NCBI GenBank assembly: GCA_030428885.1
Contig: JAUIEJ010000010.1
Span: 1-64,000, forward strand
Length of the DNA: 64,000 bases
DNA from: Gemmatimonadota bacterium
GTDB taxonomy: Bacteria; Gemmatimonadota; Gemmatimonadetes; Longimicrobiales; Gaopeijiaceae
Direction: 5' to 3'
The notes beneath the pieces are model-generated. The model made no database searches, was not told the DNA's origin, and worked only from the letters and a program-made list of their open reading frames with translations. The translations under genes and the position numbers were made by a program. Positions 648-16,509 of this stretch are shown here, in pieces (position 1 is the stretch's first letter; every line of letters starts with the position of its first letter).

Positions 648-1574
648 CTACCGGCGCCGCTCGCCGCCGATTCCGAGCGCCCGGGCGACGCGACCGATGA
701 CGGAGCGGGGCTCGTGGTTCAGTTGTTTGTAGGTCACCCGCAGGACGGTGTAGCCGGCGCCCACCAGGACCGAATCGCGCTTCCGGTCGCTCTCGAACAT
801 GTCCGAACTCTTGTGAAACTCCCGGCCGTCGATCTCGGCGATCACGCGTTCGTGTTCCCAAAGGACGTCGACCTCGTACCGCTTCACGCGGGCGTTCGTC
901 CGGAACCCCTTCAGGTCCGCATCCCTCATGAGCTCGAGGAACATCTCCTCGGCATGCGACCGCGTCATGGCAGGCTCGTCTTCCCGCAGGAGCTCCCGGA
1001 GCCGACGTACGCCGCGGCGGGTCGAGTGCCGGTCGACCAGGCGTTCGAGCCGCGAATGCTGGACAATCCCGTCCCGGAGTCCCCGTGCAAGGGCGTTCTC
1101 CAGGGCCCGCGACGGTAGGACGTTCGCGAGGTCGATCAGCGATCGGGCCGGCTTCGTGATCGCCAGTCCGTTTCTCACCGTGCGCTCGCCCTCACGAACG
1201 GCCCCCAGGCGATGAATCCGAATTCCCTTTCGCATCGAGCGGGCCTGCCTCGGAACGATCACGTCGACGGGACTCTCTCCAGGCGGATCGTCGATCAGCC
1301 CCCACAACGCGCCGGCCGTGGTGAAGCCGAGAACGACCTCCGGGCCGAAGGCGAGAAGGGCGGCGGCATACCGTTCGAGGGGGGCGCGAAGGGGGCCGAC
1401 GCGGTAGACGCCCCGATGTACGAGAACCAATCGACCCTTGCGGATGCTATGCCTCACGGCGTGGGGCGTCACCCCCGCGGCGACCAACTGCCTTCGAGCG
1501 ACGACACCGTGCTGGCGCGCCGCGAGTTCATTGATGATCGGGTCGATGGCAACCCTGACTCCGGAATCAGTCAT
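648..1574 (-). CDS. AbiEi-like N-terminal domain plus DUF559 endonuclease-like domain protein
   Basis: 308 residues. The N-terminal part (about 10-60) is a winged-helix region like that of type IV antitoxin AbiEi proteins (VVARRQLVAAGV, GRLVLVHRGVYRVG). The C-terminal ~100 residues match the DUF559/Vsr-like PD-(D/E)XK fold: E at the helix before the core, then YEVDVLWEHERVIAEIDG and FHKSSDMFESDRKRD. This pairing is common in Actinobacteria and related phyla; whether it cleaves DNA or acts as a regulator is unknown. No AbiEii nucleotidyltransferase toxin lies next to it, so a toxin-antitoxin role is not supported here. The ATG is directly preceded by an in-frame GTG at 1577. It is monocistronic, between two repeat tracts. 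Confidence 0.8.
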   Translation of the reverse strand: MTDSGVRVAIDPIINELAARQHGVVARRQLVAAGVTPHAVRHSIRKGRLVLVHRGVYRVGPLRAPLERYAAALLAFGPEVVLGFTTAGALWGLIDDPPGESPVDVIVPRQARSMRKGIRIHRLGAVREGERTVRNGLAITKPARSLIDLANVLPSRALENALARGLRDGIVQHSRLERLVDRHSTRRGVRRLRELLREDEPAMTRSHAEEMFLELMRDADLKGFRTNARVKRYEVDVLWEHERVIAEIDGREFHKSSDMFESDRKRDSVLVGAGYTVLRVTYKQLNHEPRSVIGRVARALGIGGERRR

Positions 1575-1594
1575 CACCCGGCCGGACCGCTGGG

Positions 1595-1842: not shown

Positions 1843-3213
1843 TCAGAAGGGCAGCTTCTTCCGAACCTTGGCCCAGGTCGAGGCCAGGTGGACCAGGTTG
1901 GACGAGGTGGTGCCGTGGATCCGGCCGGAGGCGAGGGCCGCGCGCAGGCCGTCGGGGGTGTTGGGGTGGGCGGGCACCTCGACCCAGGCGCCGGCGACCT
2001 CGCCCACGGTGTGGGCGTCGGAGCCCGCGGAGCGAAGGCAACCGTGGCGCTCGGCCAGGGCCGGGGCCGGGTCGTTGAGACGGCCCGGGTGGAGCCGGGC
2101 GTTGAACACCTCCACCACTTCGCAGAGGGCGGCGAGTTCGTCGGCCATCTTGCCGCCCCCGCCCTTCCCCTTCGCGTACGGGTGGGGGAGATAGGCGATC
2201 CCGCCCTGGGCTCGAATGCGCTCGCAGGTCTCCCGGGCGGGCGTACCCTTGGGGATCACCTCGGTGAGATACAGGCCAATGACGTCGATGCCCTCGGCGG
2301 TCTTCACCTCTTCGCCGGCGATGACGTGCTCGGGGTAGCGGGCGGCCATCTCCTGCGCCAGCCAGAGTTCGTTGTGGTCGGTGATGGCGATGCGCTCCAC
2401 GCCCCGGGAGCGGGCCCGGGCGAGGACGGCCTCCGGATCGGAGAGGCAGTCCCACGACGCCCGGGTGTGCATGTGCAGGTCGAGGCGGATCCACCCGGCG
2501 GGGGCCGGGGCTTCGGGTCGGAAAGGTGGCGCGTGGTTTTCCGAAAGCGGCGAGGCGGCGGCGGGGGCCGCGGCGTCGGGCACCGGCGCGTCGGGTCGGA
2601 AAGGCGGAGCGTGGCTTTCCGAACGCAACGCCTCCAGCACGGCGTCGGCCCGGGCCTCCAGGGAGGCCAGGTCGCCGTCGTTGTCGATGACGTGGTGCGA
2701 ACGCGCCCGTTTCGGGCCGGGGTCGCCCTGGGCCGCCATGAGGCGGCGGGCGGCGTCTTCCGCCAGACCCCGGGTGCGCACGATGCGCTCCAGGCGCACG
2801 TCGGCCGGAGCGTCGACGAAGACGATGCGGTCGAAGGCCTCGTCCCGTCCGGCCTCGAAGAGGAGCGGGATCTCCGCCACCGCCAGGGGCACCCCCTCGG
2901 CGACCCGATGGGCCACCCATTCGTCCACCTGGGCCCGAATCAGGGGGTGGGTGATGCCTTCCAAGCGCGCGCGGGCGTGGGAGTCCCGGAAGACGATGTC
3001 CCGGAGCCGGGCCCGGTCCAGCGTCCCGTCGGCGGCCACGACCTCGTCGCCGAAGGCGGCCCGGACGCGTTCCAGTCCCTCGGTGCCCGGGGCGACCACG
3101 TCCCGGGCCACCTGATCGGCGCTCACCACGGGCACGCCGGCCGCCCGCCAACGCTCGGCCACCGTCGACTTCCCCGACGCGGCGTTGCCCGTCAATGCGA
3201 CCCGGAGCGTCAC
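1843..3213 (-). CDS. coaE: Dephospho-CoA kinase fused to a PHP-domain phosphoesterase
   Basis: 456 residues. Residues 1-200 are dephospho-CoA kinase (ATP + dephospho-CoA to CoA, last step of CoA synthesis): P-loop GNAASGKST at 9-17, then SADQVARDVV and a normal-length body. CoaE usually ends near 200; here a linker of about 45 residues leads to a complete PHP domain (about 245-430) with LDLHMHT, ITDHNE, GEEV, LPHP, VFNA and GSDAH, which supply the expected metal ligands. The PHP part resembles TrpH/RNase AM-like phosphoesterases; its substrate is unknown. The GTG start overlaps the DedA stop as GTGA, so it is the last gene of the minus-strand operon. The linker repeats a short peptide and is encoded by a duplicated palindrome. 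Confidence 0.88.
   Translation of the reverse strand: MTLRVALTGNAASGKSTVAERWRAAGVPVVSADQVARDVVAPGTEGLERVRAAFGDEVVAADGTLDRARLRDIVFRDSHARARLEGITHPLIRAQVDEWVAHRVAEGVPLAVAEIPLLFEAGRDEAFDRIVFVDAPADVRLERIVRTRGLAEDAARRLMAAQGDPGPKRARSHHVIDNDGDLASLEARADAVLEALRSESHAPPFRPDAPVPDAAAPAAASPLSENHAPPFRPEAPAPAGWIRLDLHMHTRASWDCLSDPEAVLARARSRGVERIAITDHNELWLAQEMAARYPEHVIAGEEVKTAEGIDVIGLYLTEVIPKGTPARETCERIRAQGGIAYLPHPYAKGKGGGGKMADELAALCEVVEVFNARLHPGRLNDPAPALAERHGCLRSAGSDAHTVGEVAGAWVEVPAHPNTPDGLRAALASGRIHGTTSSNLVHLASTWAKVRKKLPF
2512..2625. repeat. Duplicated ~33 bp palindromic element inside the coaE-PHP linker
   Basis: Two near-identical copies begin TCGGGTCGGAAAGG and end TTTCCGAA, about 78 bp apart. Each is a stem-loop: TCGGAAA (2518-2524) with TTTCCGA (2538-2544), and TCGGAAAG (2596-2603) with CTTTCCGA (2615-2622). 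On the coding strand both are read in frame as SE(S/N)HAPPFRP(D/E)AP. The TTTCCGAAC box recurs in the intergenic tract at 31.48-31.56 kb, which suggests a mobile palindrome tolerated as linker. Confidence 0.7.
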
Positions 3214-4034
3214 TCGGCGTCGACCACGGTGGAAGGGGGAGGTGCCACGGGAGGGGCCGGCGACGAAGGGGGAGATGCCACGGGCGGGGCCGGCGATGAG
3301 GGGGGAGGTGCGGGCGGGGCCGGCGACGAGGGGGGAGGTGCGGGCGGGGCCGGCGACGACGGGGGAGGTGTCACGGGCGAGGCCGGCGACGACGGGGGAG
3401 GAGTTGGAGGCTGGGCCGCGCCCGAGCCAGTGACGGGCTCGGAAGGCGACCTCGACGACCGCCGCGCCCGGAGCCAGATCACCACGCCGGCCACGGCGAA
3501 GATCACCATCCAGCCGCCGCCCACCAGCGCGGTGGCTCGCTCCCAGCTCTCACCGGCCACGAGTCCGATGGCCATGTAGAGGGCCGCCCAGAGCAGGAGT
3601 CCCGGGATCTCGTAGAGGAGGTACACCGGAAAGGGGATCCGGGCCACGCCGCTGGCCACGGGCATCACGGTGCGCACGAAGGCCACGAGGCGGGCCACGG
3701 TGACGGAAAACACCGGATGCCCGGAGAGAAAGCGACCGGTGCTGGCGTCATGTCGGGCCAGCGCCCGGGCGGCCATTCCGTCACCGTGGCGGAGGGCTTC
3801 GCCGCTCCGGCGACCGATCCAGTAGCCGGCGACGTCACCGGCGAACCCACCCAGCACCGCCGCGGCGGCCACGGCTTCGTACTCCATGCGCCCCTGCCCC
3901 GCCAACGCCGTGGCGAAGGCCGTGGCCACGCCCGACGGCACCACCACCCCGGTGACGAACACCGTCTCGAGAAAGGCCAGGACGGCCAGCAGCCAGGGAC
4001 CGTAGACCGCGACCAGTTCGAGGACGTCGGACAC
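3210..4034 (-). CDS. DedA-family (VTT domain) membrane protein with proline-rich tail
   Basis: 274 residues. Residues 1-195 form a DedA/VTT-domain inner membrane protein: several hydrophobic helices, the conserved G(F/A)xGDxxGYWIGRRSG stretch, and ARLVAFVRTVMPVASG, the typical FxRxxxPxxxG signature. DedA proteins are undecaprenyl-phosphate or lipid flippase candidates and support membrane homeostasis. After the last helix (WMVIFAVAGVVIWLRARR) comes a tail of about 70 residues made of PPPSSPAPP-type repeats, not a usual DedA feature. The start is GTG, 6 bp after the upstream stop; the stop overlaps the coaE start. Confidence 0.85.
   Translation of the reverse strand: MSDVLELVAVYGPWLLAVLAFLETVFVTGVVVPSGVATAFATALAGQGRMEYEAVAAAAVLGGFAGDVAGYWIGRRSGEALRHGDGMAARALARHDASTGRFLSGHPVFSVTVARLVAFVRTVMPVASGVARIPFPVYLLYEIPGLLLWAALYMAIGLVAGESWERATALVGGGWMVIFAVAGVVIWLRARRSSRSPSEPVTGSGAAQPPTPPPSSPASPVTPPPSSPAPPAPPPSSPAPPAPPPSSPAPPVASPPSSPAPPVAPPPSTVVDAE
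3235..3415. repeat. In-frame 30-36 bp tandem repeat encoding the DedA proline tail
   Basis: About six units of the type GGGGGAGGTGCGGGCGGGGC plus CGGCGACGA. All period lengths are multiples of three, so the DedA frame stays open and gives (P)PPSSPAPP(A/V) repeats. Copy number is probably variable. Confidence 0.75.
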
Positions 4035-15821: not shown

Positions 15822-16505
15822 ACCCCACGCCCCCAACCCGCCCAGACAGGCCGCCCGGGGGACGTTCGGGTGGATCGGGGCGGCCAGGCCGCATCAAGTT
15901 GACCCAACCGGCTCACCCGCCCTGGAGAGTGGATGATTGGGGGCGCTCCGGCGCCCCCAAACCGACACATCCCTCGGCGCGGGAGGAGTTGGGGTGGGTT
16001 GGGGGCGCGGCCGGCGCGGCCGGGGCGGGCGGGCGGCGCAGCCGGCCGGCCGCCAACGCCCCCAACCCGCCCAGACAGGCCGCCCGGGGGACGTTCGGGT
16101 GGATCGGGGCGGCCAGGCCGCATCAAGTTGACCCAACCGGCTCACCCGCCTTGGAGAGTGGATGATTGGGGGCGCTCCGGCGCCCCCAAACCGACACATC
16201 CCTGGGCGCGGGAGGAGTTGGGGTGGGTTGGGGGCGCGGCCGGCGCGGCCGGGGCGGGCGGGCGGCGCAGCCGGCCGGCCGCCAACGCCCCCAACCCGCC
16301 CAAACAGGCCGCCCGGGGGACGTTCGGGTGGATCGGGGCGGCCAGGCCGCATCAAGTCGACCCAACCGGCTCACCCGCCTTGGAGAGTGGATGATTGGGG
16401 GCGCTCCGGCGCCCCCAAACCGACCCATCCCTGGACTCGGGAGGAGTTGGGGTGGGTTGGGGGCACGGCCGGCGCGGCCGGGGCGGGAGGGTGGCCGGCC
16501 GGCCG
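15822..16505. repeat. Tandem 229 bp repeat, locus 2 (three MITE-like copies)
   Basis: Three copies with an exact 229 bp period. Each carries the hairpin GGGGGCGC-TCCG-GCGCCCCC (15939-15958, 16168-16187, 16397-16416) and a second palindrome GCGGCC-A-GGCCGC. Each 176 bp core begins CCCCCAACCCGCCCA(G/A)AC and ends GTTGGGGTGGGTTGGGGG, imperfect inverted ends (about 15 of 18 match): 15830-16005, 16059-16234 and 16288-16463. A 53 bp spacer separates the cores. The array fills the whole gap between the permease and the RND exporter; no gene is seen in it. Confidence 0.9.
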
Positions 16506-16509
16506 GCCT

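Follow-up and report, generated by a model that had tools for sequence, protein, structure and literature searches.

Why should a dephospho-CoA kinase (CoaE) carry a phosphoesterase of the PHP type at its C-terminus? This question is raised by one gene of the window, the whole stretch of 64,000 nucleotides of a Gemmatimonadota bacterium analysed here (Table 1). The original prediction, made from the DNA letters alone, had described the gene as a full kinase joined to a full PHP domain and had connected both parts through proofreading or through the turnover of CoA or 3'-phosphoadenylate. As detailed below, CoaE-PHP is a real two-domain protein and the pairing of its halves looks meaningful; the substrate of the PHP domain can be named as a candidate only.

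Table 1. Features of the CoaE-PHP locus, in positions of the window.
Feature	Position	Strand	Basis
CoaE-PHP fusion gene, 456 aa, GTG start	1843..3213	-	ORF, open throughout; Pfam and NCBIfam
Dephospho-CoA kinase (CoaE) domain, residues 1-196	2626..3213	-	PF01121, TIGR00152, PDB CoaE chains
Walker A / P-loop GNAASGKST, residues 9-17	3163..3189	-	Sequence; conservation in 35 fused proteins
Pro/Ala-rich linker, residues 197-240, mostly predicted disordered	2494..2625	-	pLDDT <50 at 210-232; linker lengths
Compact PHP metallo-phosphoesterase domain with PHP_C part, residues 241-456	1846..2493	-	PF02811, PF13263, model, structure matches
Linker repeat copy 1, imperfect direct repeat	2496..2548	+	Contains TCGGAAA...TTTCCGA, 2518-2544
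Linker repeat copy 2	2574..2626	+	Core 2596-2622
DUF559/AbiEi-type protein, downstream of PHP	648..1577	-	Pfam; site of the NrnA-like gene in most family members
VTT (DedA-like) membrane protein, upstream, 4-nt overlap with coaE start	3210..4034	-	ORF; PF09335 E 1.7e-10

Domains and linker of the fused protein

The N-terminal half belongs to the dephospho-CoA kinases across the full domain, as evidenced by scores above the cut-offs of PF01121 (residues 5-183, E 6.7e-49, 166.4 vs 27 bits) and of the NCBIfam model TIGR00152 (142.7 vs 65.55 bits), which bear out the full CoaE with P-loop GNAASGKST of the original prediction. This motif conforms to the rule G-x4-GK-S/T, and its residues G9, G14 and K15 do not vary among the 35 fused proteins that were aligned; the half that contains it would phosphorylate the 3'-OH of dephospho-CoA. 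In a sequence search, CoaE chains of the PDB matched the N-terminal half with E values down to 4e-33 and PHP enzymes matched the second half weakly. In that second half Pfam detected PHP (residues 245-292, 2.5e-7) and PHP_C (residues 378-431, 1.5e-9), and CoaE, PHP and PHP_C all exceed their gathering scores. The only match of the protein in its own genome (5.39 Mb, 95% complete) is itself.

The objection that the original prediction had raised against itself, an artefact of assembly or reading frame, could draw on the location of the gene near the contig end with long tandem repeats beside it; it is contradicted by the fused state of the gene in 38 further genomes and in five public contigs (L031-L035, at least one of which may duplicate a genome already counted), and its probability is practically nil.

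Linker length, taken between two fixed points, was compared across 45 fused loci, a set that counts duplicates and public contigs: the median is 22 residues, and the window protein has the maximum, 58. The full-length model (alignment A2, 35 fused rows) contains two confident domains separated by a stretch with pLDDT <50 at residues 210-232; its pTM is 0.55, and therefore the packing of the CoaE and PHP domains is not reliable. The DNA of the linker holds an imperfect 53-nt repeat, its copies 83% identical and spaced by 78 nt. A mobile repeat was considered and rejected, since the 27-nt palindromic core pattern occurs twice genome-wide and both occurrences sit inside the linker, indicating a local duplication.

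Other repeats were observed in the window. Two three-unit tandem arrays of similar G+C-rich make-up (~199 and 229 nt, 97% matches) occupy positions 3-597, at the contig end, and 15827-16508; 24-nt tandem repeats (6.3 copies, 1587-1737) separate the end of PHP from the DUF559/AbiEi gene; and the C-terminus of the VTT/DedA-like protein is a proline-rich tail (PPSSPAPP...) encoded by 33-nt repeats (3232-3401).

Pairing of coaE and PHP among relatives

The domain order of the window protein recurs in other genomes, where the original prediction had suggested looking for it. Reading of 69 genome loci, one of them without coaE, left 68 genomes counted in detail, with the genes fused in 39 and separate in 29; by family, the fused and separate forms numbered 32 and 13 in f1, 0 and 7 in f2, 0 and 5 in f3, 6 and 1 in f7, and 1 and 3 in f9. 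In a search of 58 relatives, 57 had a match and one had nothing, and coaE and PHP were adjacent, in the same order and orientation, in 48 of the 48 that have both on one contig (26 in f1, 11 in f2 and 11 in f3). The other relatives had the two genes on different contigs (two genomes), PHP only (two) or coaE only (five). The coaE matches are partial in two of the latter (G003, G041), and in the other three (G026, G029, G030) an nrnA-like gene follows coaE directly on its 3' side. PHP has been lost and coaE kept in some genera. At a threshold of 1e-8, 293 of 298 genomes of a wider sample of the phylum were matched; most genomes of families f4 and f5 gave one match, which among the matches listed is CoaE without PHP.

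Where the genes are separate they are tightly coupled. The predicted PHP start, taken as the start codon of the PHP frame nearest to the coaE stop, overlaps that stop or is at most 11 nt away in all 29 pairs (4-nt overlap in 15, 8-nt in seven and 40-nt in one; 2-11 nt beyond the stop in six). On a PHP tree built from 67 of the 68 genomes plus four paralogs, the fused/split label requires at least 10 changes, at least six of them forced by well-supported branches, and 0 of 500 shuffles gave a number as low. Given these changes, the stable state would appear to be the tight coaE-PHP pairing and not the fusion. The ancestor may have been a translationally coupled coaE-PHP gene pair, in two families usually located just upstream of an NrnA-like DHH-DHHA1 gene. 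Fusion of this pair would have arisen several times, when the coaE stop was lost or the frame changed, perhaps with later re-splitting.

A second PHP copy is present in four f2/f3 genomes (L084 2391-3107, L085 2042-2776, L086 2012-2716 and L087 2313-3014). These copies are 38-43% identical, lie apart from coaE and form a paralog clade on the PHP tree; in the two rows listed, Glu stands at the position of Asp310.

In the sampled phyla the coaE-PHP pairing appears confined to the Gemmatimonadota, within a limited sampling. None of the 249 genomes searched in the phylum of G315 contained CoaE-PHP at E 1e-18, a strict threshold applied to a set without positive control. In the phylum of G316, three of 198 genomes matched at 1e-15, none of them near coaE or nrnA, and the neighbours of these PHP genes include glycosyltransferase, ATP-grasp and asparagine-synthase genes. 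Plasmids yielded 11 PHP-related records with <36% identity, nine of them haloarchaeal, and the two plasmid regions viewed contained no annotated coaE; neither the haloarchaeal nor the Bacteroidota PHP relatives examined were close to coaE.

Metal site and fold of the PHP domain

Residues H247, H249, D255, H280, E302, D310, H344, D399 and H401 at the PHP metal site are invariant in the 35 aligned fused proteins and, except for the position of D310, also across the 52 PHP rows, which come from five families and include paralogs. The metal ligands reported for RNase AM, His13, Asp20, His45, Glu72, His83, His198, Asp255 and His257 (PMC9410882), align by profile, in order, to H247, D255, H280, E302, D310, H344, D399 and H401, the pairing of Asp20 with D255 being direct in the 3E0F alignment and one position off in that with 7UG9. 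The counterpart of RNase AM His83 is the invariant D310 in the fused proteins; eight positions of the metal site are as in other PHP enzymes, and one further His position is occupied by an invariant Asp. The full PHP domain of the original prediction stood, on the Pfam matches and a pLDDT of 96, and its claim that all the expected metal ligands were present failed at this residue.

Conservation of this kind bears on the idea that the C-terminal domain merely aids the folding or solubility of CoaE, like UPF0157 in the Mycobacterium tuberculosis enzyme. The additional C-terminal domain of that enzyme is reported to be required for folding, which sets a precedent (PMC2765170), but invariant metal ligands (35 fused proteins and 52 PHP rows, bar D310) would be superfluous for a mere folding aid, and sister genera have CoaE without PHP; such a role is therefore judged very improbable.

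The PHP domain was modelled with AlphaFold (alignment A1, 52 PHP rows; pLDDT 96.3, pTM 0.92), and the predicted fold, together with the Pfam scores for PHP and PHP_C, places it in the PHP superfamily. Its best structural matches are PsfC (7RTY), TM0559 (2ANU) and BVU_3505 (3E38), tied at Z 19.0-19.2 with rmsd of 2.7-3.4 over 187-205 residues. They are followed by BAD_1165 of B. adolescentis (Z 17.7, rmsd 3.0 over 179 residues), RNase AM (7UG9 and 9ETK; Z 17.2 and 17.1, rmsd 2.8-2.9 over 173-174 residues) and CV1693 (2YB1; Z 17.1, rmsd 2.7 over 171 residues), with histidinol-phosphatase, polymerase-PHP and TatD-like rows lower down the list.

An insertion domain of ~88 residues is reported to bind the 5'-phosphorylated nucleotide in the PHP proteins RNase AM and CV1693 (PMC9410882). 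It is absent from the profile alignments of the CoaE-PHP domain with both enzymes, where profile positions 80-88 span residues 83-172 of 9ETK (RNase AM) and positions 78-91 span residues 79-174 of 2YB1 (CV1693); with it are missing the counterparts of R107, R110, R141 and F161 of RNase AM, residues named in the same source. Judging by these alignments, the catalytic centre looks intact, but there is no nucleotide pocket of the form present in known PHP enzymes that cleave nucleotides. The NCBIfam scores of the PHP part all lie below the cut-offs: the 3',5'-nucleoside bisphosphate phosphatase model NF041577 reached 47.3 vs 400 bits and aligned to residues 7-78 only, the RNase AM/TrpH model NF047791 reached 34.3 vs 375 bits, and the best match of the PHP part, the CehA/McbA metallohydrolase model NF038032, reached 62.9 vs 80 bits in an alignment that spans most of the domain. 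All 52 rows of alignment A1 match the CehA/McbA and nucleoside-bisphosphate phosphatase models, the first row, the only one scored against the cut-offs, falling below both.

Dephospho-CoA is consumed by CoaE, which counts for the proposal that the PHP domain acts on RNA 5' ends started with dephospho-CoA, removing or shortening these caps, and that CoaE competes with it for one pool of dephospho-CoA. Among PHP enzymes, RNase AM is reported to remove FAD caps, and the existence of dephospho-CoA caps is reported as well (PMC9410882). Since the insertion domain that binds nucleotide ends is missing from this PHP domain and Pfam gives no RNA-binding domain in the CoaE-PHP protein, decapping is judged very improbable.

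Gene neighbourhood, candidate substrates and known systems

Among the 58 relatives, an NrnA-like DHH-DHHA1 gene, which the original prediction had not mentioned, directly follows PHP on its 3' side, the two matches lying less than 200 nt apart, in 25 of 28 f1, 12 of 12 f2 and 0 of 11 f3 genomes, that is, in 37 of the 40 testable genomes of f1 and f2. In the f1 exceptions it lies 334 nt on, on the same contig and strand (G013), or on another contig (G014, G023), and in the f1 genomes without PHP it comes directly after coaE (3/3). In a hand-chosen panel of 21 loci, with three further family members checked by Pfam, a DHH-DHHA1 family gene follows the pair or coaE in 15. One transporter gene stands between PHP and the NrnA-like gene in f9 and in the single f7 panel locus that holds the latter, and in f7 and f9 another DHH-DHHA1 gene is found directly upstream of coaE (L116 9444-10529, L120 6532-7590). 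Both DHH and DHHA1 exceed their Pfam cut-offs in the NrnA-like protein, which matches solved NrnA and related DHH chains in the PDB and scores 93.4 vs 350 bits, below the cut-off, with NF053633 (aligned over 4-313 of 317). The genome of the window gave no NrnA-like match at 1e-10; given this, the DUF559/AbiEi-like gene found in its place and the nearby contig end and tandem repeats, the NrnA-like neighbour was lost or left unassembled. The gene in its place encodes an AbiEi-type N-terminal part and an endonuclease-like DUF559 domain, and is possibly an abortive-infection or mobile-element gene.

Around the pair, f1, f2, f7 and f9 conserve a more extended gene order that also takes in FUR, arginase, phospholipase-D and DsbD genes; this makes the adjacency of NrnA a weaker argument. 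The same order makes the adjacency of coaE and PHP weaker evidence and favours the view that the two are operon partners only, PHP serving another pathway (for instance an unrelated phosphoester, or the trimming of short-RNA 5' ends together with NrnA) and coaE being linked to PHP through co-transcription and the chance fusion of overlapping genes. Overlapping genes are easily fused, and short RNA is reported as a substrate of both RNase AM, a PHP enzyme, and NrnA (PMC9410882, PMC9757072). Against a mere operon partnership, the pair persists where the wider order is gone, in both f3 panel loci and in the window, and was never separated through at least six fused/split changes. A partnership of this kind is a serious possibility, to which somewhat less than an even chance is given.

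From the computed anatomy, conservation, coupling, neighbourhood and metal site we infer an activity, a substrate and a direction for PHP. The C-terminal half, a putative compact PHP metallo-phosphoesterase with its catalytic residues retained, would hydrolyse a small adenylate phosphoester from CoA metabolism. The first candidate would be adenosine 3',5'-bisphosphate (pAp), released as CoA donates phosphopantetheine to carrier proteins, or else the CoA 3'-phosphate; both are plausible as substrates, and synthesis and 3'-phosphate turnover would thus be produced together. This proposal is based on the CoaE, PHP and NrnA-like set, whose members jointly point to adenosine phosphoesters, on the pAp literature and on the MESH1 reaction. 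Both sulfate assimilation and CoA metabolism are described as yielding pAp as a by-product, which is hydrolysed by CysQ, by NrnA or by the PHP protein Cv1693 (PMC8268124); NrnA enzymes are reported to prefer RNA of 2-4 nt and to be weak on pAp (PMC9757072); and MESH1, an animal CoA 3'-phosphatase reported in 2026, shows that 3'-dephosphorylation of CoA occurs biologically (PMC13221220).

Several features of the sequences speak against this link to CoA. Besides the missing insertion domain and the absence of an NrnA-like match from the window's own genome, a CysQ match above the cut-off is present in that genome, so that pAp disposal need not depend on PHP. PHP and CysQ are jointly missing in three genomes (G026, G029 and G030 of f1, genera g22, g25 and g26), which lack PHP as well as any CysQ/IMPase match; the NrnA-like gene is never adjacent in f3; and PHP relatives elsewhere are not tied to coaE. 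The idea that PHP and CysQ replace each other as pAp phosphatases was rejected on account of those three genomes. Altogether, a CoA-linked adenylate phosphoesterase is proposed tentatively, an unrelated or an RNA substrate being equally likely. A narrower version, in which CoaE-PHP and the NrnA-like neighbour form a dedicated CoA 3'-phosphate module where CoaE adds the phosphate and PHP removes it from CoA or pAp, is unlikely; if true, it would represent a bacterial CoA 3'-phosphatase physically tied to the kinase, acting as a two-way switch on the CoA level or in pAp salvage.

Of the functional link drawn in the original prediction, the connection between the halves gains from adjacency, overlapping stop and start codons, repeated fusion and the NrnA-like neighbour, and proofreading found no support; we know of no CoaE error product for a 3'-phosphatase to correct. 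Its TrpH-type 3'-phosphatase acting on CoA or pAp stays plausible, set back by the missing insertion domain, the 47.3 of 400 bits and the dropping of PHP in some genomes.

A fusion of dephospho-CoA kinase with PHP appeared in no paper among the full-text matches listed, as judged by the listings, where several titles use PHP in other senses. Both halves belong to known families, and their combination did not turn up in the literature searched. To our knowledge, little is known about CoA breakdown in bacteria. The question becomes open to direct testing with a kinase that bears a candidate opposing phosphatase, occurs naturally in fused and in separate form, and has an NrnA-like gene as its neighbour.

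Compared with known systems, the PHP half is alike in fold to the compact proteins TM0559, PsfC and BVU_3505, with ~20% identity, these not being shown with CoaE; its closest NCBIfam model is CehA/McbA, under whose cut-off it scores. With RNase AM/TrpH it has the PHP fold and metal site in common, and with CV1693 the fold and nearly all metal ligands, one His being Asp here; unlike both, it is devoid of the insertion domain. NrnA, the oligoribonuclease/pAp phosphatase, represents the family of the f1 and f2 neighbour, a separate gene and not part of the CoaE-PHP protein. The kinase domain and its P-loop are the same complete ones as in CoaE (PF01121, TIGR00152), to which the fusion adds a C-terminal PHP domain. 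The mycobacterial CoaE-UPF0157 (GrpB) fusion likewise bears an extra C-terminal domain on CoaE (PMC2765170); UPF0157 is a member of another family with a reported role in folding, whereas the domain added here is a metallo-phosphoesterase with a conserved metal site.
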